The notes below the pieces were generated by a model. That model worked only from the letters and a program-made list of their open reading frames with translations. It was not told where the DNA came from and searched no databases. A DNA stretch of 24,311 nucleotides from a virus: IMG/VR virus record IMGVR_UViG_3300009593_000119, positions 1 through 24,311 of that record; one strand, written 5' to 3'. How positions within the stretch are numbered: the stretch's first letter is position 1; each line of letters begins with the position of its first letter. The position numbers and the translations under genes are program-made. This document shows positions 5,546-17,293 of the stretch, piece by piece.

Positions 5546-7726
5546 CTATATTATAGTAATCGTACCATGCATTGACCCATGAATCTCACAGTTATAATGA
5601 TAAGTGTTCTTCGGAACACCAGCAGTGTTCCATATAAGTGGTCCTACCTGTGTTCCATTATTTTTAATACCCTCTGGTTGATTGGAAAGACTAGGTTGAC
5701 CAGTGGTTTGTGTCATAGTAATCCACATAGGATGACCATCAAATCCTGATCCTTTAAACTGTAATATATCACCTTGATTAATCACTATTGCTGGATCGGG
5801 AGCATCATTAAAAGTACTCTGTCTATCACTACCAGTCATTATATAATCACCTGGTGCAGAAACAATTGTTATAGTATATACTGGAGTTGGTAAAGATCTA
5901 TAAAAATTATTAGTTCTAGGATACATTTGAGCATTATAGAACATATATGATGGTCTCCTCTCACCTTTCAATGTTTCTTTATACCACCCATCAATAAGAC
6001 CACTTACATTTCTTGGATTAATTGCTCTTATTTCTCTAGTTGTAGAAGTAGATCCACCATGTAATGGATTTGCTCCACCAGCAGCAGACATATCATCAAA
6101 CAAACCACCATTAATATCAAATGTCATTTCATTTTCATAAGAATTATGCTGTATAAATCCCTTTACATCACTATTAGTAAATCTTTCTTTACCTGTTGCT
6201 AACAATGCTGCGATACCACAAACTTGTGGTGATGCCATGCTAGTTCCACTAATAGGATATCTCCAATTAGTACCACCATATTTGTTGTCAACCATACCAT
6301 CACCATTCCTTCCTGATGCAGCATAGATGCCACTTGGATCTGGCCAAGCACTTTGAATCCAATGTCCAGGTGCCCAAACATCAATCACTGGTCCAAAATT
6401 AGAAAAGTCTGACTTTCTAAAATCAGATTCATTTGAAATAGAACCTACAGTAATACAACCATGTGCATTAGATGGAGAAGATCCTCTATGATGATTAAAT
6501 GAGTATGTACCTCCACTAGGAAGATTAAAAGTTATCTTATTATTCCAATCAACAAATTCTGGTGTTAATGAATTTGCCTTTATACCATACTTATCATTGT
6601 TACCAGCAGCAGCAATAACAACTACACCCTCATCAATGGCATCGTTCATGTCATATCTTGTCGCAGTGCTATCCCTATTATATCTGTAATCATTTGCACC
6701 TATACCAAAGTCTGCAGATATTCCTGCCATTGTCCATCCACTAGGACCAGGATTAGCAGCATTGTATGTTATACCACGAACTATAATTTCATTTATATCA
6801 GTTGGAACTAATGCTCTTTCGAAAAATGAATATATTTTCCAACTAGATCCCCAACTATGATTTGTTACTGTAGGATTTTTTTTACCTGTTAAAGGATTAA
6901 TTGGTTTGTATCTATGGAATGCTCTCAAATAATCAAATACTAATGTAGATGTAACAGGAGTTCCAAAACCACTACCAAGATTTATATGTAAACTATAAAT
7001 GTTTGCTTCTCTTGCCCAACCATAGTATTGTCCAGCAACAGTACCTGCTACATGACAACCGTGATATGTTGAATTACCACTATTGGGATGATATACATAT
7101 GATCCTGAAGGAAGTGCATTACCATCATCATCTATACTACCAACATATTGATTTAACTCGGTATACCAATCATATTGTACAAATCTACTTTGTCCAGTAG
7201 TAGGACTATCCCATTCAGCACAATCATATGAAACTGGTTGATCAACAATAACTACATCAACATGTTTTCCATCAGCAAAAACTTCAAGATCGTCATTAAA
7301 GTTTGCAGTTTTTCCTACATCACCTCCCCATAATCCCTTTCTTCTTTGAGCAGTGCTTCCAGCAGAATGTAAATGTCCCCACTGTCTGTCATTATCACCA
7401 TGTAGATAGGTTGCTCCTCCCTTTTCAAAATCTCCATTAAATCCATATGGAGTATTATTAACTTCAGAGTAGTAATTATTAAAAGGTTCAATAACTCCTA
7501 TTGGATCATCATCTATATTAATTTCAACAGCAGCAACCCTAGAATCACTTCGTATATCTTCTGCTTGTGTACTATTCATATAGTACTCTGTACTTCTACT
7601 AATAGGACGTTTTCGATGAAGATGATATCCATCTGATGCCATGTCCGAATAGAAACCTTCTAAATCAGATTTATTTTCAAGTGTAACAACATATAATTTA
7701 TTATCTGAATGATCGTATAGTCCCAT
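5546..7726 (-). CDS. Subtilisin-family (S8) serine protease with C-terminal cupredoxin domain (726 aa)
   Basis: ATG at 7726, one base after the TGA of the 427-aa fibre gene; GAGG precedes it by about 7 bases. Residues ~10-72 resemble an inhibitor I9 propeptide (YVVTLENKSDLEGF ... IRSDSRVAAVEI). The S8 catalytic domain spans ~155-520: Asp162 in VDVVIVD, His222 in YHGCHVAGT, oxyanion Asn376 in AAAGNN, Ser496 in SGTSMASP. All four key residues are present, so activity is expected. The canonical HGTHVAG reads HGCHVAG, placing Cys224 beside the catalytic His. Residues ~616-726 are cupredoxin-like with His665, Cys713, His716 and Met719. No signal peptide is seen, so export is unlikely; packing into the virion with its fibre neighbours is inferred. 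Likely roles are processing of virion proteins or digestion of host surface protein. The protease call is very sure; the copper function is inferred. Confidence 0.95.
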   Translation of the reverse strand: MGLYDHSDNKLYVVTLENKSDLEGFYSDMASDGYHLHRKRPISRSTEYYMNSTQAEDIRSDSRVAAVEINIDDDPIGVIEPFNNYYSEVNNTPYGFNGDFEKGGATYLHGDNDRQWGHLHSAGSTAQRRKGLWGGDVGKTANFNDDLEVFADGKHVDVVIVDQPVSYDCAEWDSPTTGQSRFVQYDWYTELNQYVGSIDDDGNALPSGSYVYHPNSGNSTYHGCHVAGTVAGQYYGWAREANIYSLHINLGSGFGTPVTSTLVFDYLRAFHRYKPINPLTGKKNPTVTNHSWGSSWKIYSFFERALVPTDINEIIVRGITYNAANPGPSGWTMAGISADFGIGANDYRYNRDSTATRYDMNDAIDEGVVVIAAAGNNDKYGIKANSLTPEFVDWNNKITFNLPSGGTYSFNHHRGSSPSNAHGCITVGSISNESDFRKSDFSNFGPVIDVWAPGHWIQSAWPDPSGIYAASGRNGDGMVDNKYGGTNWRYPISGTSMASPQVCGIAALLATGKERFTNSDVKGFIQHNSYENEMTFDINGGLFDDMSAAGGANPLHGGSTSTTREIRAINPRNVSGLIDGWYKETLKGERRPSYMFYNAQMYPRTNNFYRSLPTPVYTITIVSAPGDYIMTGSDRQSTFNDAPDPAIVINQGDILQFKGSGFDGHPMWITMTQTTGQPSLSNQPEGIKNNGTQVGPLIWNTAGVPKNTYHYNCEIHGSMHGTITII
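5549..5881 (-). other. Cupredoxin domain of the subtilase (amicyanin-type copper loop)
   Basis: Residues about 616-726 of the protease. The block begins YTITIVSAPGDYIMTGSDR, continues with IVINQGDILQFKGSG and GHPMWIT (His665), and ends YHYNCEIHGSMHGTITI. Cys713, His716 and Met719 give the C-x2-H-x2-M spacing of amicyanin, the shortest natural type 1 copper loop. With His665 the usual ligand set is complete. Metal binding itself is inference. Confidence 0.78.
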
Positions 7727-9044: not shown

Positions 9045-9326
9045 TTACGTGTTAGATGGAGTCCACTGTTTACCCCTTGGAAACAATTGTCCAGAACCTG
9101 GTCTTTGTGGATTGGTATGTCTATCTGAATCAGTTATTGTGTGATCAAATAATGATGATACAGTTTTTGGAACATATGGAACTTTTTCATCACCCCAAGA
9201 TTCAAATCCGTCAGGAACATTAGTGAAATTACCTAATTGAGATCCCTTAAGATGCTTTGTTTTATTATTTCTATCAACAGGAGATTGTATTGTGTGAAAT
9301 GAAGTAGCACCATTTGGAAAATTCAT
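9045..9326 (-). CDS. Small protein of unknown function (93 aa)
   Basis: ATG at 9324-9326 overlaps the TAA of the 863-aa gene by one base (TAATG); AGGA about 9 bases upstream supports the start. It is hydrophilic, without signal peptide, membrane segment or clear repeats, and rich in Asn, Ser, Thr, Pro and His. The start MNFPNGATSF recalls the INFP/ITFP openings of the 214- and 432-aa fibre proteins, so it may be a short relative of those N-terminal modules or a truncated fibre. I do not recognise a family. Tight coupling to a virion gene argues for a virion or assembly role. Confidence 0.65.
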   Translation of the reverse strand: MNFPNGATSFHTIQSPVDRNNKTKHLKGSQLGNFTNVPDGFESWGDEKVPYVPKTVSSLFDHTITDSDRHTNPQRPGSGQLFPRGKQWTPSNT

Positions 9327-11917
9327 TAGGTTGTCCTCGCACAGAATGCTATACCTTTACAAGAATTCTGCGAAATTCCATCAAATGTTTTTTGATTTAC
9401 AGTATATGAAACTTCAATAATCTTATATATTTCAGAAGCAGAAACTTCAATGTTATCTCCAGTATGGAATGTAGTAGCACCTGGAGTTACATTAAATGGT
9501 ATTACAACATAATCATCAGGAAGATAATAAGGAACTGGTGCCCAAGTATTCTGTATAGGTAATCCTTTTATTGGTTTATAATAATCAGCAGCTGCATCTA
9601 TTGCTGTCTGTGATGGTATATCTGATTTATTTCCAGGATAGTAATCAGGCGAATTCTGATAATCATAGCTTCCACCAGTTGATGTTCCTATCTGCCCACC
9701 ACGATATTCAACATCAACTTCTGCTTTATCTCCCTTATAATCTTTAGTATCTACACGTTTATCAAAAGCACTATCTCTAAAATATGGTTTTATTGTGTCA
9801 GTTTCAATATTGTTGGTGTACATATTAGTACTGTAATATGTGCTATGAGACATACTAGAAGTTGAATCGTTTTCAGCATCTCTAAAGTATCCGTATTCTG
9901 CACATCTTCTTAATGCTTTATCCTCACCTAATTGTTCTTCAGTCCCTCTATAATTCTTTGCCATATGTGTCTCAAAAATGATAATTTCTTCAACACCACC
10001 ATAATTACCAGGTCTAAAGTTCGTAAAACCACCTTGCCAAACATGATCTAAATCCCATATCCCATTACCAATAACAGTTCCTTTATGGAAATATAATGAC
10101 AATTGTGATTCATCATTACCTGCAACATTTTGAACAAACTGAAGAATATAGAAGTTTGGATCTTGAGGATCATTGGTGTTTGATTTCCAAACTTGTACCT
10201 TCAATGGATAAGAATTGGCATTAGATCCAACTCCATACTGGAATTCAGCATAATGACTATCATTATAAGTAAAAGAACGTTGATTTTCTGCAATATCAAA
10301 TCCTGATTGACCCTTCCATGAACCTTCATAAGTATCGGAAGTAGATGTTGGATTCCAGTTTAAATAGTTCCAACCAACTCCTGCCCCTATTTGTAGTTCA
10401 TATTCGTTAGCAGGATTTAATTTGATACCATAAAAAGTAGTACCATAAGTTTTATTAGCATCATTTGTTATTTCTACAATTGCTGAATTAACTTGATTAT
10501 ACCTTGCCCAAAAATTAGTACCACCACTACCAATATCCATCACCTGAACACTAGGTACAGCATTTTTATCAGCTATTTGTTGAGTAGTAGCTGAATTTAC
10601 ACCAAATACAATATCATGTGTTGGTGTACTACCACCTGTTTTATCTCCTGGTATAGTAAACACTTCATCAGCAGACCAACCTTTTGCATCTGGTGTTTCA
10701 ACCCTTATTCCAGAGATCTTTCCATATTCACTAGAATTTTGTTCGTAAGTACGTCTATAAACTCTAAATGTACATGCCTCTCTACCTCCACTAGCAGGTA
10801 CTTCATAATCCCAATAAGGTTGATTATATGTAGTAGTATATGTACGTGTATTTGGTTTTACTTCTATATCAAGTTGCATTGCAGGATGATTTTTACATTG
10901 CAATACATAAGTTCCTTGAGTCCAATTTCTCATATGCCAATGAATTAATCCACTACTAACATCTAATTCCACATCACCTGCTGGCATGGTTCTATAACTT
11001 AAATTAGTATAATGAGTAAATGTAGCATTATCTGTTTCTTTTAATTGTCTAACATCACTATATGTACCACCTGGGAAAGTTAAACTAGTATCATCAGTAT
11101 CAACAAAAACAATAGGATGTCCTGCAGTATTGGTTAAATGGAATGTAATATAATCTTCTTGATTAGCTGATATTTTAGTTACTGCAGGAAATTCAAATTC
11201 TAGATCATATACATTGATATCATCATTATGATCTGCAGTATTTCCAGACCACTGACTAGCAAAAGTTATTGCATTACCTGCAAGAGCATCAGCATTTGAT
11301 GCTGCTAATTTAAATACATCTGGATATTGAGTCTGTACTGTTATATCAGTATAATCATCAGGTATAATCAGATAATAAGGATTACCAACCACTAATTCTG
11401 GTGGTAAAGTACCACCACCACTAGGATTTCTTACAATAACTTCCTGCCCTGTTACATAACCATATCCAGCACAAATATGTTTCAAACCACTAACTTGATC
11501 TAAATCTACACCATTAGTTGTATTGGTAGTATAATCTTGCCATTCACTTCCCATCCTATTGGAATAAATTTCACCATTAGTGTAGATAACGTTAGGTTGC
11601 CAAATAGGATTCGCAACAAAAGCACCACCATTTACACTTAATCTTATATGATGAAATGCTTGATATGGCATTTTGACTTGACCACCACCAGTATTTTTCC
11701 AATTAATATCATTCCATCCACCATAATTATATGGTTCTCCAGAACCAGGAGCAAGACAATTAACTATTACACCACCTTTCCTCTCACTAGAACCATGAAC
11801 ACCAGCATCTGCTAGTACTTGTTCTATAGCACTTAAAACATCGGTTCTAGACCATCCTGTGGTTCCTTCGGTGCCACCAACGTGACGAACAAAAGGTGTG
11901 TTATTTTGTATTGCCAT
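9326..11917 (-). CDS. Large virion/tail fibre protein with cupredoxin domain (863 aa)
   Basis: ATG at 11917 abuts the TAA of the 214-aa gene (TAAATG). Residues ~18-60 (TTGWSRTDVLSAIEQVLADA ... KGGVIVNCLAPG) resemble the N-terminal domain of large fibre-like proteins in marine T4-like phages, and the C-terminal GIAFCARTT ending is also typical of them. Residues ~247-356 form a cupredoxin-like domain: ANQEDYITFHLTNTAGHPIV with His267, then YVLQCKNHPAMQLDIEV with Cys341, His344 and Met347, the same C-x2-H-x2-M loop as in the subtilase. The rest is aromatic-rich beta sequence without known catalytic motifs. It is the middle gene of a 214-863-93 aa unit. A virion surface protein is well supported; copper binding is inferred. 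Confidence 0.8.
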   Translation of the reverse strand: MAIQNNTPFVRHVGGTEGTTGWSRTDVLSAIEQVLADAGVHGSSERKGGVIVNCLAPGSGEPYNYGGWNDINWKNTGGGQVKMPYQAFHHIRLSVNGGAFVANPIWQPNVIYTNGEIYSNRMGSEWQDYTTNTTNGVDLDQVSGLKHICAGYGYVTGQEVIVRNPSGGGTLPPELVVGNPYYLIIPDDYTDITVQTQYPDVFKLAASNADALAGNAITFASQWSGNTADHNDDINVYDLEFEFPAVTKISANQEDYITFHLTNTAGHPIVFVDTDDTSLTFPGGTYSDVRQLKETDNATFTHYTNLSYRTMPAGDVELDVSSGLIHWHMRNWTQGTYVLQCKNHPAMQLDIEVKPNTRTYTTTYNQPYWDYEVPASGGREACTFRVYRRTYEQNSSEYGKISGIRVETPDAKGWSADEVFTIPGDKTGGSTPTHDIVFGVNSATTQQIADKNAVPSVQVMDIGSGGTNFWARYNQVNSAIVEITNDANKTYGTTFYGIKLNPANEYELQIGAGVGWNYLNWNPTSTSDTYEGSWKGQSGFDIAENQRSFTYNDSHYAEFQYGVGSNANSYPLKVQVWKSNTNDPQDPNFYILQFVQNVAGNDESQLSLYFHKGTVIGNGIWDLDHVWQGGFTNFRPGNYGGVEEIIIFETHMAKNYRGTEEQLGEDKALRRCAEYGYFRDAENDSTSSMSHSTYYSTNMYTNNIETDTIKPYFRDSAFDKRVDTKDYKGDKAEVDVEYRGGQIGTSTGGSYDYQNSPDYYPGNKSDIPSQTAIDAAADYYKPIKGLPIQNTWAPVPYYLPDDYVVIPFNVTPGATTFHTGDNIEVSASEIYKIIEVSYTVNQKTFDGISQNSCKGIAFCARTT
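10850..11179 (-). other. Second cupredoxin domain with intact copper ligands
   Basis: Residues about 247-356 of the 863-aa protein. The order of parts matches a small blue copper fold: a first His in AGHPIVFV (267), then a final strand-loop-strand YVLQCKNHPAMQLDIEV giving Cys341, His344 and Met347. It is internal rather than C-terminal, and apart from the ligand motifs differs from the subtilase domain, so it is not a recent copy. Confidence 0.7.
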
Positions 11918-12599: not shown

Positions 12600-15500
12600 T
12601 TAACTTATACCTCCATCGTAATTATCATATGGATGATTACCTACTCCTGATTCCACTGTTGGATCTTCTGCCAAATTAGTATAAACATGAGGAGCTTGAG
12701 CAGCATTATATCCATAGATAGCATTATTTAAATCTTCAGTATTTGTAGAAGGGAATGAACGACCAGAACCCCAGATAATTCTTACAGCACCAGTACATCC
12801 TTTCCAAGCAGCACCTCCACCAGTAGGAGCTCCTGACCCTTGTCCTCCTGCAGGTCCCCATACTCCAGCGTCAGCACCAGCACCACCACCATAATATCCA
12901 CCAGCAACAGCCCCATTATAAATCTGCTCATTCTGACTATAAGGAGGATGTCTTCCATCTCCACTTAACCAACCTCCATTTGCAGGATCTCTACGAATTA
13001 CACCAGCTTTCGCCCACAACCAATGTATTGAACCGCCTTTACCAACAACTGATGGTGCTTGATCATCATCACCTCCACCAACACCATTATTACCTTCTCC
13101 CCATATTCCTGTTCCACCACCACCACCAGCAACAGCACCATACCTACCATCTGGGGGATTTATTTGTGCGTCACCAACTGAATCAGATCCACCGCCACCA
13201 GCTCCACCACCAGTTCCATCTTGACCAGATCCACTGTTAGCACCATCACCACCACTTCCTGAATACCCACCAGCTCCACCACCACCTGTTCCATTATTTC
13301 CAGTACGAGTACCTCCACCGTTTCCACCGTTTCCACCACCGTCTCCTACATAATCTCCACCTTGAGCAATACCATTACCTATTCCTCTTCTACCACCCTG
13401 ACCTCCACCACCTTTAACAGTAGTTGCGTCTATAAAATATGAATCTCCACCATTAGTACCAACATCTGGACCTGATTGAATCTCTGTGTTTGTGGATGGG
13501 AATGCTCTACCTAAACCCCATAGAATTCTTACTGCCCCATTAGATCCAGCAATACCATTACCACCACCTCCACCAGAACCAGGCCCTAAACTAGGGAATG
13601 CTGCAAAAGTTTGTGGATCTCCACCAGATCCACCTTTTCCACAGTGTCCATAAGATCCAGAACCACCACTATCATATGTACTAGCACCAGCACCATTAGT
13701 ACCTTCTCCTTCTAGTCCTACACCACCACCAGCACCACCTTCCCAAGATGCACCAGCACCTCCACCACCAGCACCACCATTACCTTGATTACCAGAACTT
13801 GCTCCAAAACTTATTCCTGTTCCACCCATTCCACCATTACCTGAATATCCACCAGCTCCACCGCCACCACCAGCATAAGATCCATTCTTTGATCCACCTT
13901 GACCACCATTTCCACCACCATCTCCTGTCCAATCACCACCAGTTCCACCATTATTAGTTGTACTCGGACTTCCACCACCACCTCTAACAGTGTTGTAGTC
14001 TAGAAAATATGAATCTCCACCACCTGAATTTTTATTACCAACAACTACAGTATAAGATTGTCCTGGTGTTACAGAAATATTATTTTTCCATCCAAGACCA
14101 CCACCACCATCTCCATGTTTATCAGCACCACCATCACCACCAGCACCTACACAAACAGCAGATACTGATGTAACGTCAGCAGGACAAGTCCAACTATAAG
14201 ATCCTGGCGTTGTCCATTCTTGCTCACCTGCATCGATTGGAACATCATTACCACCAACAACAACAGTATATGATTGACCTGGTGTTACTGAAATATTATT
14301 CTTATATCCTAAACCTCCTCCACCACCACCATCACCTGCAGGATTACCAGATGATCCTGTCCAAGTTTGGTTGGGTGTTGAAGAACCACCACCTCCTCCA
14401 ATACAAACTACAGAAACTGATGTAACATCAGCAGGACATGTCCAACTATATGTTCCTGCTACTGTATATTCTTTTTGACCCACTGCAAAGTTATCATCAA
14501 AACCAGTATAAAAAGTATCAACTGTGGGTCCATTACAAGCTAACAATTTAGTATCAGGTATTTGCTTAACTGGTTCTATATGACTTGAATTCCAAGTATC
14601 TGCACCATATACAGCTCTTCCTGTAACAACACGAACATTAGATATCTGTCCAGCCATAGCAGTACTTTCTCCTGATCCTTGACCATGACCACCAATAGCT
14701 ATCCTCTTCGTACTCGTATCATTAAGATCAGGCATACTAGCAAATTGGAATAAATCTGAATTACTTCCAGAATATTGATGGGTACGATTCCCACTCATAA
14801 AAAGATATAAACCAGTACCTATTCTTTCAAAAACAACATGTCTCCAAGAGTCACTCCCATTCTCACTATCATGTGATAGTAAATGATCTCCACCCAAATA
14901 CCATCTTATTTCAGCATCTTCACCATTACCTCCATAAGCATCTTTATTAGCCTGATTCTGATGATACCATCCGACTGAATTAGTTCCAGTAGGAGCAATC
15001 TTCCATGTAACTTTATTATTCTCATCCAAACCTTCGATAAAAGGAGAGTTGATACCTGCACTACCTAGACCCCAATAAGTTTGACCTGGTGCACCTACTC
15101 CAGGTCTCCACCAAAACTCAATTGTCCAATTATAATTTCCTAAATGAAAATAATTTGGTGTTGGTGGTGTAACTATCAAATATTGAAAATTATATGCTCC
15201 TTTAAATTGAACACTAGATCTTCCATCAATATTAGGAGTTCCATCACCAATTGGAGTATCCCAACTTATACGAACTCCACCATCTCCACCAGCCCCACCA
15301 GATCCAGTTTGTCCACCACCAGTCAGACCCTTTCCACCAGCACCTCCATATAATCCACCAACTCCACCAGTAGATCCATTAGAAGTTCCACTTGGAGGTC
15401 CACCAACACTTCCAGTTTCTCCGAATACTAATGGTACTCCAACTGAACCTGTGCTGCCATTATTTCCACCAGTTTGTCCTTTATATGAATAATCTCCACC

Positions 15501-15995
15501 TTGTACCCATTGTGTTGCTGGATGGCCATTACCACCTACAGCTCCACTCCTGTGTCCATCTCCACCTGATTTAATTACACCATTACCTTCGGTGAACATA
15601 CCTTCTCCACCAGTTTGTCCATAATAACCACCACCATAAGCTTTTACAATATATTGCCCATTAGATTGTCTTTGAACGTATGATGTATTTCCATCACAAT
15701 CATTATAATCAACACTACCCCATACATGTCCAGGACCACCAGGTCCCACACAAACTACTAAAGTTTCTCCAGGAGTAACAGAAACACCATCAGTCCAAAC
15801 TAAACCACCACCACATGCACCATTAGAACTACTTCCACCTGTTGATCCTCCACCGCCACCACCAACAGCCATTATGTTAATATTAGTTACACCAGCAGGA
15901 ACAACAAAGTTAGTCGTTGCTCCAACAGTAGATGCCTCAAAAGTTATATGAGTTTGTTGAACTCCATGAACAAGTAACTGCTGTACAATAGCCAT
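12600..15995 (-). CDS. Glycine-rich adhesin with LamG-like domain (1131 aa)
   Basis: ATG at 15995 overlaps the TAA of the 432-aa gene (TAATG). Residues ~26-246 are a first glycine-rich module: a beta head (TNFVVPAGVTNINIMAVGGG) and a Gly-rich tail ending GGVRISW. Residues ~258-490 look like a LamG/concanavalin-type jelly roll (NWTIEFWWRPG, SWRHVVFERIGTGLYLF, AGQISNVRVVTGRAVYG, DTKLLAC). Residues ~507-1087 hold two more copies of the Gly-rich module, apparently nested (heads at 507 and 590, tails ending GRAFPSTNTE at 838 and GRSFPSTNTE at 1087). Long glycine arrays of this sort form polyglycine-II bundles in the gp38 adhesins of T-even phages such as S16, so a receptor-binding tip is the best inference. 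The LamG part suggests binding to surface carbohydrate. Plus-strand frames here are His-rich artefacts. Confidence 0.85.
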   Translation of the reverse strand: MAIVQQLLVHGVQQTHITFEASTVGATTNFVVPAGVTNINIMAVGGGGGGSTGGSSSNGACGGGLVWTDGVSVTPGETLVVCVGPGGPGHVWGSVDYNDCDGNTSYVQRQSNGQYIVKAYGGGYYGQTGGEGMFTEGNGVIKSGGDGHRSGAVGGNGHPATQWVQGGDYSYKGQTGGNNGSTGSVGVPLVFGETGSVGGPPSGTSNGSTGGVGGLYGGAGGKGLTGGGQTGSGGAGGDGGVRISWDTPIGDGTPNIDGRSSVQFKGAYNFQYLIVTPPTPNYFHLGNYNWTIEFWWRPGVGAPGQTYWGLGSAGINSPFIEGLDENNKVTWKIAPTGTNSVGWYHQNQANKDAYGGNGEDAEIRWYLGGDHLLSHDSENGSDSWRHVVFERIGTGLYLFMSGNRTHQYSGSNSDLFQFASMPDLNDTSTKRIAIGGHGQGSGESTAMAGQISNVRVVTGRAVYGADTWNSSHIEPVKQIPDTKLLACNGPTVDTFYTGFDDNFAVGQKEYTVAGTYSWTCPADVTSVSVVCIGGGGGSSTPNQTWTGSSGNPAGDGGGGGGLGYKNNISVTPGQSYTVVVGGNDVPIDAGEQEWTTPGSYSWTCPADVTSVSAVCVGAGGDGGADKHGDGGGGLGWKNNISVTPGQSYTVVVGNKNSGGGDSYFLDYNTVRGGGGSPSTTNNGGTGGDWTGDGGGNGGQGGSKNGSYAGGGGGAGGYSGNGGMGGTGISFGASSGNQGNGGAGGGGAGASWEGGAGGGVGLEGEGTNGAGASTYDSGGSGSYGHCGKGGSGGDPQTFAAFPSLGPGSGGGGGNGIAGSNGAVRILWGLGRAFPSTNTEIQSGPDVGTNGGDSYFIDATTVKGGGGQGGRRGIGNGIAQGGDYVGDGGGNGGNGGGTRTGNNGTGGGGAGGYSGSGGDGANSGSGQDGTGGGAGGGGSDSVGDAQINPPDGRYGAVAGGGGGTGIWGEGNNGVGGGDDDQAPSVVGKGGSIHWLWAKAGVIRRDPANGGWLSGDGRHPPYSQNEQIYNGAVAGGYYGGGAGADAGVWGPAGGQGSGAPTGGGAAWKGCTGAVRIIWGSGRSFPSTNTEDLNNAIYGYNAAQAPHVYTNLAEDPTVESGVGNHPYDNYDGGIS
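12735..14477 (-). repeat. Two glycine-rich modules, one apparently nested in the other
   Basis: Within the 1131-aa adhesin, the order is head 1 (residues ~507-582), head 2 (~590-655), tail 2 (~657-838), tail 1 (~848-1087). Heads share GTYSWTCPADVTSVSVVC and NNISVTPGQSYTVVVG. Tails share GGDSYF(L/I)D..TV(R/K)GGGG, GDGGGNGG, GGGGAGGYSG and GAVRI(L/I)WG.GR(A/S)FPSTNTE. Confidence 0.7.
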
Positions 15996-17293
15996 TAGGT
16001 AATACCACCACCCATTACTACATATTCATTTGTACCAACACAGACAAGAGTAGCAATTCCTTTCTGTGCTAATGTTCTATTTTGAGAAGTACTATCTCCA
16101 ACAAGGTACATATCTACACTTGATCTTTCTATACTAATGTCACTAGCAGTAGAATTGTATATCGTTACTATATCTCCCTCGGATAATTGATTAGCAGAAC
16201 TAACAGTTATAGTACCACTAGCTTTAACCATCTTACCAGTATCTGAAGCTTGAATTGTGTATGCTGCTGCTTGTGTATTGACAGGTAAAGATCTAACATT
16301 ATCCCAAGCATAATCAGTTCCATTCCAACTTAAAACTTCATTTGCATTTGCTGATGATTTATTAATATGTGTATCTACATCATTGGTATCAAATGTACTA
16401 CCAGTTGCAATAGAAATAACTCCATCAGCAGCAATTTGGATGCCAGTACCACCACTTTTAACACCACCTAATACTGTTGTTGTTGCAACTGGTACAGGGG
16501 AATCAGTAAACTCTAAAGCATTTTCACCAGCATTCACCTTGGTAAACTTACCAGCTTGTCCACTAAAAGAATTTGGAGTATCATTAAGTTCTAACCAATC
16601 ACCTTTACCTTCTGGTGTATCTTTAAGGAATACTTTTATAGTTCCATATCTATAAGTTGTTGGATTATTAATGAAGTTCTGATCACAATCCTGATAATAG
16701 TATTGTGCTCCTCCCTGATATAAACCTAATCCATCCGTTTCCTTACTTACCCATGTAACAGTACCACTCTCTGTAGGTTGACCAGTAGGAGCATTTGCAG
16801 AGCTAGTATCACCAATCTCTATAAATTCACCACCTGGATTTGTTGCAGCAGTGGCCGCTACAAGACGAAACTCTTGACCAGCAGAACTAACATTGAATAT
16901 TACAGTGTCTTCTTCATTAATATGAATAGTTGGATTCGTTCCACTAACAATACCACGTCTATCATTTCCAGTTACAGTATAATCCCCTACCACTCCAGTT
17001 TGACCAGATTGAGGATCTGTAACTGAAACTTGACCATTTCCAGTTACAGTAAAAGTAAAGGTTTTTGGTCCAGGTATTGTACCTGAAAAATTTATAACTC
17101 CATCATTAGCAACTGTTATATCAGTACCACCACCTTTAATACCACCTAATACTGTTGGTGATGCTATGGGTAAACTATAAAAATTTGATTGCCCAACAGC
17201 AACCCACGTACCATCAGTAAAGGTATATGTAATACCATTTATTGTATGCTGTTCATCTGGTGAAGGACTATTTGGAAAGGTTATTGCTGACAT
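15995..17293 (-). CDS. Modular tail fibre protein with degenerate cupredoxin-like domain (432 aa)
   Basis: ATG at 17293, preceded by AGGG about 8 bases upstream and 4 bases after the TAA of the 1052-aa gene. Residues 1-35 are the ITFPNSP...GITYTFTDGTWVAVG opening module shared with the 214-aa fibre. Two copies of a fibre motif occur at ~45-70 and ~270-297 (TVLGGIKGGGTDITVANDGV / TVLGGVKSGGTGIQIAADGV). Residues ~103-223 align in pattern with the subtilase's cupredoxin (DYTVTGNDRRG ... PTIHINEEDTVIFNV), but the copper ligands are replaced (Gln140, Asn206, Asn209; only Cys203 remains). The C-terminal ~90 residues (YTIQASDTGKMVKASGTITV ... LAQKGIATLVCVGTNEYVV) are a well-known fibre end domain. 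A tail fibre is well supported. Confidence 0.82.
   Translation of the reverse strand: MSAITFPNSPSPDEQHTINGITYTFTDGTWVAVGQSNFYSLPIASPTVLGGIKGGGTDITVANDGVINFSGTIPGPKTFTFTVTGNGQVSVTDPQSGQTGVVGDYTVTGNDRRGIVSGTNPTIHINEEDTVIFNVSSAGQEFRLVAATAATNPGGEFIEIGDTSSANAPTGQPTESGTVTWVSKETDGLGLYQGGAQYYYQDCDQNFINNPTTYRYGTIKVFLKDTPEGKGDWLELNDTPNSFSGQAGKFTKVNAGENALEFTDSPVPVATTTVLGGVKSGGTGIQIAADGVISIATGSTFDTNDVDTHINKSSANANEVLSWNGTDYAWDNVRSLPVNTQAAAYTIQASDTGKMVKASGTITVSSANQLSEGDIVTIYNSTASDISIERSSVDMYLVGDSTSQNRTLAQKGIATLVCVGTNEYVVMGGGIT
16625..16987 (-). other. Degenerate cupredoxin-like domain (copper ligands lost)
   Basis: Residues about 103-223 of the 432-aa fibre. It keeps the DYxxTGxDR and P.I.IN..D.(I/V).F pattern of the subtilase domain and the final YYYQDCDQNF ... 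YGTIKV strand. Where copper ligands would be, it has Gln140, Asn206 and Asn209, with Cys203 left. Confidence 0.55.

Follow-up and report, generated by a model that had tools for sequence, protein, structure and literature searches.

Type 1 copper sites are the electron-transfer centres of respiration and photosynthesis, and to our knowledge none has been described among the structural components of a virion. The petE gene (plastocyanin) of cyanophages is a separate metabolic auxiliary gene and not a part of the virion (PMC3037559), and for marine phages it has been proposed that T4-type tail fibres bind iron via HxH motifs (PMC11705849). In openly accessible journal papers on phages, no cupredoxin or plastocyanin-like domain was found in connection with tail fibre, virion or baseplate, and the combination of cupredoxin and cyanophage led only to a paper on Borgs that mentions each word once. 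The DNA analysed here, referred to as the window, is a stretch of 24,311 nucleotides from IMG/VR record IMGVR_UViG_3300009593_000119, in which a subtilase gene ends with a cupredoxin domain.

Rusticyanin and the N-terminal domain of the Hyphomicrobium copper nitrite reductase (CuNIR) are like the phage domain in fold and in ligand order, His...Cys-His-Met, and the GH(S)F of rusticyanin lines up with GH(P)F in the phage. Rusticyanin differs in its longer Cys-to-Met loop and in the residue following the first His, which is Pro in the phage copies, and no respiratory partner was seen for the phage domain. Amicyanin shares the C-x2-H-x2-M loop but has PHN, with Asn after the first ligand His, where the phage family has the invariant Pro666, and the phage domain is fused to a protease with no obvious signal peptide; genes for methylamine dehydrogenase, the partner of amicyanin, were not recognised in the window. 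Plastocyanin has the same copper ligand set, but a loop two residues longer. Among phage proteins, the cyanomyovirus Peptidase S8 proteins of phrog_9158 belong to the same family as the window protein over the full length, while the gp9 connector of phrog_677 has a C-terminal cupredoxin with intact ligands in common with it but is without a protease domain.

The subtilase-cupredoxin gene and its surroundings

The window is cyanomyovirus DNA. The record closest to it is that of Marine virus AG-345-P14 (Kyanoviridae), with 87% identity across 76% of the window. In the PHROG search, several of the genes nearby matched families of tail and virion-structural proteins, and phrog_677, the family of the gp9-type baseplate wedge-tail fibre connector, matched the C-terminus of the fusion protein. 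The first-pass annotation had described a cupredoxin domain fused to a phage subtilase, and the protease part was borne out by the Pfam match and by the Asp-His-Ser triad and oxyanion Asn of the S8 family, which are intact and invariant in an alignment of 27 fusions (Table 1).

Table 1. Coordinates of the features discussed in the text (positions in the window).
Feature	Position	Strand	Basis
Subtilase-cupredoxin fusion gene, 726 aa	5546..7726	-	phrog_9158 match over full length, E 2.7e-179
N-terminal ~60 aa (res. ~9-70), compact alpha/beta, putatively propeptide-like	7517..7702	-	AlphaFold2 and interpretation
Catalytic D162, just ahead of the Pfam-matched stretch	7241-7243	-	invariant in 27 fusions
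Peptidase_S8 match, res. 214-529	6140..7087	-	Pfam PF00082, E 7.5e-26
Catalytic H222	7061-7063	-	invariant in 27 fusions
N376 (oxyanion Asn)	6599-6601	-	invariant in 27 fusions
Catalytic S496	6239-6241	-	invariant in 27 fusions
Low-confidence linker, res. 570-615	5882..6019	-	AlphaFold2, pLDDT below 50
Cupredoxin (type 1 copper) domain, ~111 aa, res. ~616-726	5549..5881	-	AlphaFold2, Foldseek, VIA-align, profiles
His665, predicted Cu ligand, followed by invariant Pro666	5732..5734	-	sequence and alignments
Cys713, predicted Cu ligand	5588..5590	-	sequence and alignments
His716, predicted Cu ligand	5579..5581	-	sequence and alignments
Met719, predicted axial Cu ligand	5570..5572	-	sequence and alignments
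Variable cassette, 54-58% DNA identity to AG-345-P14	5560..5895		DNA comparison
Second cupredoxin domain, ligands intact (GHP...CKNHPAM)	10859..11209	-	HMM, E 5.6e-19
Third copy, ligand-less (GQEF...YYYQDCDQN), inside 15995-17293	16630..16999	-	HMM, E 8.4e-18

The full-length AlphaFold2 model is of moderate quality (pLDDT 69.8). Strands and helices in residues 10-69 are modelled at a pLDDT of about 82 and are followed by a low-confidence stretch (73-93), and the N-terminal 70 residues or so may resemble a subtilisin propeptide, presumably of the I9 type; Pfam gave no match for this unit. Residues 570-615 are very low in the same model, indicating that the linker between protease and cupredoxin is probably a flexible tether. 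On inspection by eye, the fusion shows no obvious signal peptide.

Two more copies of the domain were found in the window. The one with intact ligands belongs to a tail-region protein of 863 residues (9326-11917), for which neither Pfam nor PHROG gave a match at the thresholds applied. Adjoining the tail genes is also a very glycine-rich protein of 1131 residues (12600-15995) with repeated glycine blocks.

The probable copper domain and conservation of its predicted ligands

His665, Cys713, His716 and Met719 are present at these numbers in the ORF, with the C-x2-H-x2-M spacing pointed out in the first-pass annotation, and its assignment of the last ~110 residues to a cupredoxin was upheld by an AlphaFold2 model, by matches to type 1 copper folds and by profile matches. 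The model of the domain, for which 48 window and viral-contig sequences were used as input, has a pLDDT of 94.5 and a pTM of 0.86. His51 of the model (H665) is located just ahead of strand 53-56, Cys99 (C713) at the end of strand 94-99, and His102 and Met105 in the short loop preceding strand 106-111, and this placing of ligands relative to strands and loops fits the cupredoxin topology. Foldseek gave rusticyanin as the top match (E 6e-5), with type 1 copper proteins, nitrite reductases and laccases among the matches, and in VIA-align the best match was the N-terminal domain of the three-domain CuNIR of Hyphomicrobium (Z 10.5, 1.9 A over 90 residues), with rusticyanin at Z 9.9 (95 residues, 2.5 A). 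A profile built from 19 homologues matches plastocyanin, amicyanin and rusticyanin with E-values of 7e-5, 1e-4 and 2e-4, respectively. In the profile alignments Cys, the second His and Met line up with those of plastocyanin and amicyanin, while the first His lines up with that of rusticyanin and is offset by two residues relative to the other two. The proposed amicyanin type is correct as regards the loop, but the best structural matches lie with CuNIR and rusticyanin, and the first His is followed by Pro and not Asn. The Pfam models Copper-bind and Cupredoxin_1 weakly match 13 and 9 of the 19 family members (best E 5.8e-5 and 4.8e-5, respectively), the window copy being without a match to either, and neither a Pfam search with the window protein nor a search of the window with Cupredoxin_1 found a cupredoxin. 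Taken as a whole, the domain very probably contains a true type 1 copper site, and we infer that it binds copper.

An alignment of 19 sequences, in which the homologues share 24-45% identity with the window copy, has just seven invariant columns (H, P, Y, C, H, M and I); these include all four ligands, which therefore do not vary freely among homologues. Searches by tblastn or HMM without a ligand motif supplied 16 of the 18 relatives in this alignment; L002 and L005 were found with six patterns covering the whole protein, one of which includes the first His. In the larger scans of viral contigs the patterns were short peptides containing a ligand, and the loci were therefore divided according to the pattern that caught them. 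Among the matches listed, the four ligands (HCHM) are kept in 49 of 49 loci caught by the Cys pattern only, in 60 of 60 caught by the His pattern only, and in 114 of 206 caught by neither; for domain copies in subtilase ORFs the figure among the matches listed is 80 of 83. Copies without the full site are largely siblings in which several or all of the ligands are lost at once, for example the second copy in gp10-like proteins, and a few copies deviate at a single ligand. Such ligand-less siblings show that the fold can also be of use without copper. A further alignment (A4) had been pre-selected for intact ligands and was for that reason not used as evidence of conservation. Pro always follows the first ligand His in the alignments, a feature that marks off the family from plastocyanin and amicyanin, which have Asn in this position, and from rusticyanin, which has Ser.

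Occurrence of the fusion and a variable cassette

The first-pass annotation knew of no other fusion of a protease and a cupredoxin in phages, but the architecture turned out to be a conserved one. It is found within phrog_9158 and in at least seven named cyanomyoviruses, namely S-H9-1, S-CAM4, ACG-2014e, ACG-2014h, ACG-2014i, ACG-2014j and AG-345-P14, and at least 68 fusion ORFs are present among the loci listed; some of these ORFs are near-copies of each other, and in some the domain is present two to four times. In the records consulted these proteins are of unknown function, "hypothetical protein" or subtilisin-like, and the copper domain is not named. The orthologous subtilases of S-WAM2, S-RSM4, S-H38 and S-CREM1 are without the cupredoxin domain, indicating that it is an accessory module that the protease as such does not need, and the subtilase of S-SCSM1 has none within the stretch that was read. 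In marine cyanomyoviruses the domain is present on gp9, gp10-like, tail fibre and subtilase proteins; phage records with a match number 327 for the gp9 version, which has the domain at the C-terminus, and 216 for the gp10-like version, these being counts of matching records and not of verified ligand sites. The domain of the window is thus one instance of a widespread and apparently undescribed tail module of marine phages and not a one-off.

Compared with AG-345-P14, most of the protease part lies at 75-95% DNA identity, the linker at 82% and the stretch just upstream of the cassette at about 80-90%; the identity falls to the level given in Table 1 over 5561-5890 and returns to 96-99% immediately downstream, in the reading direction of the gene. 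The borders coincide with the cupredoxin domain and the ligands are retained within them, and this sharply bordered variability of the copper domain relative to the closest sequenced relative, with the ligands kept, is a new observation. At the protein level the protease of the window is 74-76% identical to those of the four nearest relatives in the alignment, compared with 38-46% for the cupredoxin, and in distant fusions with a protease only 29% identical to that of the window the domain is equally close (43-46%). The comparison of sequences looks like a replacement of the module, or very fast local divergence, in which the metal site was kept; blastn with the cassette DNA against phage records found no donor, and despite the sharp borders the low identity could also come from rapid divergence instead of exchange. 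Mosaicism of this kind is typical of tail parts in contact with the host, which favours a contact role for the domain.

Other stretches of the window vary as well. Positions 16056-16955, inside the ORF with the ligand-less copy, show 57-62% identity to AG-345-P14, in which the corresponding stretch has no detectable cupredoxin copy, and positions 10956-11855 are another stretch of a tail gene that varies between the two.

A possible role in the tail and relatives in bacteria

Gene order and labels in related phages point to the tail. A gp9-like or tail-pin gene directly precedes the subtilase gene in S-H38, in S-CREM1 and on the contig of locus L206. In the record of S-SCSM1 the subtilase homologue is labelled 'baseplate wedge subunit (virion protein)' and a cupredoxin-bearing protein 'long tail fiber proximal subunit (virion protein)', and 45 virion proteins of this phage were identified by mass spectrometry (PMC9602691). 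These labels, together with the virion proteome, make it likely that the protein of the window is located in the virion.

The reading that we consider the most plausible, and moderately probable, is a subtilase associated with the tail or baseplate, with a type 1 copper module that is exposed, exchangeable and of the host-contact type; this reading presumes copper occupancy, a virion location, contact with a surface and a link with proteolysis. Following the propeptide-like N-terminus, the S8 domain and the flexible linker, the blue copper domain would be exposed at the tail and take up copper after assembly or lysis, a loading through Sec export being disfavoured by the lack of an obvious signal peptide. 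It might then serve as a compact, copper-stabilised and exchangeable contact module for the host surface, which would place the protease on host surface proteins during adsorption.

The ligand-less siblings in gp10-like proteins and in the window would agree with a purely structural beta-sandwich spacer, the ligand set of which would hold zinc or nothing at all in the virion. In copies with the site, however, all four ligands, the axial Met among them, have been retained at 24-45% identity and across what appears to be an exchange of the cassette, and a spacer would not need the Met, which makes this explanation improbable. Somewhat less so, but still unlikely, is a copper Trojan horse or scavenger, where the sites of the tail would compete for copper or would themselves be recognised by host surface proteins involved in copper uptake; the many potential copper sites per tail, on several proteins per genome, the parallel iron proposal for T4-type tail fibres of marine phages and the variability of the module, like that of host-contact parts, fit with it, but no receptor is known, and surface copper receptors of cyanobacteria are generally poorly defined.

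Type 1 sites elsewhere carry electrons and the fused protease is intact, and the copper domain might thus pass electrons or sense redox state and so switch the protease; we regard this as very unlikely, as the domain is also found on gp9, gp10-like and fibre proteins that have no protease, related proteases lack the domain, and the linker is predicted to be flexible. A chance motif in an unrelated C-terminal domain could be suspected from the Pfam searches with the window protein alone, but is effectively refuted by the model, the fold and profile matches and the conservation of the ligands.

Extending the preferred reading of an exposed host-contact module, it is possible, although we propose it only tentatively, that the tails of marine cyanophages carry many true blue-copper sites, on gp9, gp10-like, fibre and protease proteins, with the copper domain as an exchangeable host-contact module, tail copper acting in adsorption and viruses forming a copper-binding pool in seawater. 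Loading of the sites would mean that copper is carried on the tails of very abundant ocean viruses, which matters for adsorption, for trace-metal chemistry and for the parallel idea of iron in phage tails.

Marine bacteria, chiefly Bacteroidota, also have the domain with its ligands. Locus L206, filed as a Gammaproteobacteria MAG, was rejected as a cellular fusion since the neighbour is a phage gp9-like gene, and the tandem arrangement of gp9-like and subtilase genes indicates that the contig is viral at least in part. In many proteins of marine Bacteroidota (L187-L265) the domain ends the protein, with a loop such as CSLHGGM at the extreme C-terminus. Marine alphaproteobacterial and other genomes (L226, L240-L243, L248-L251, L256 and L258-L260) encode proteins of about 430 residues with two tandem copies, having for example NHPL..CLFHGGM followed by GHPF..CQFHGSM.
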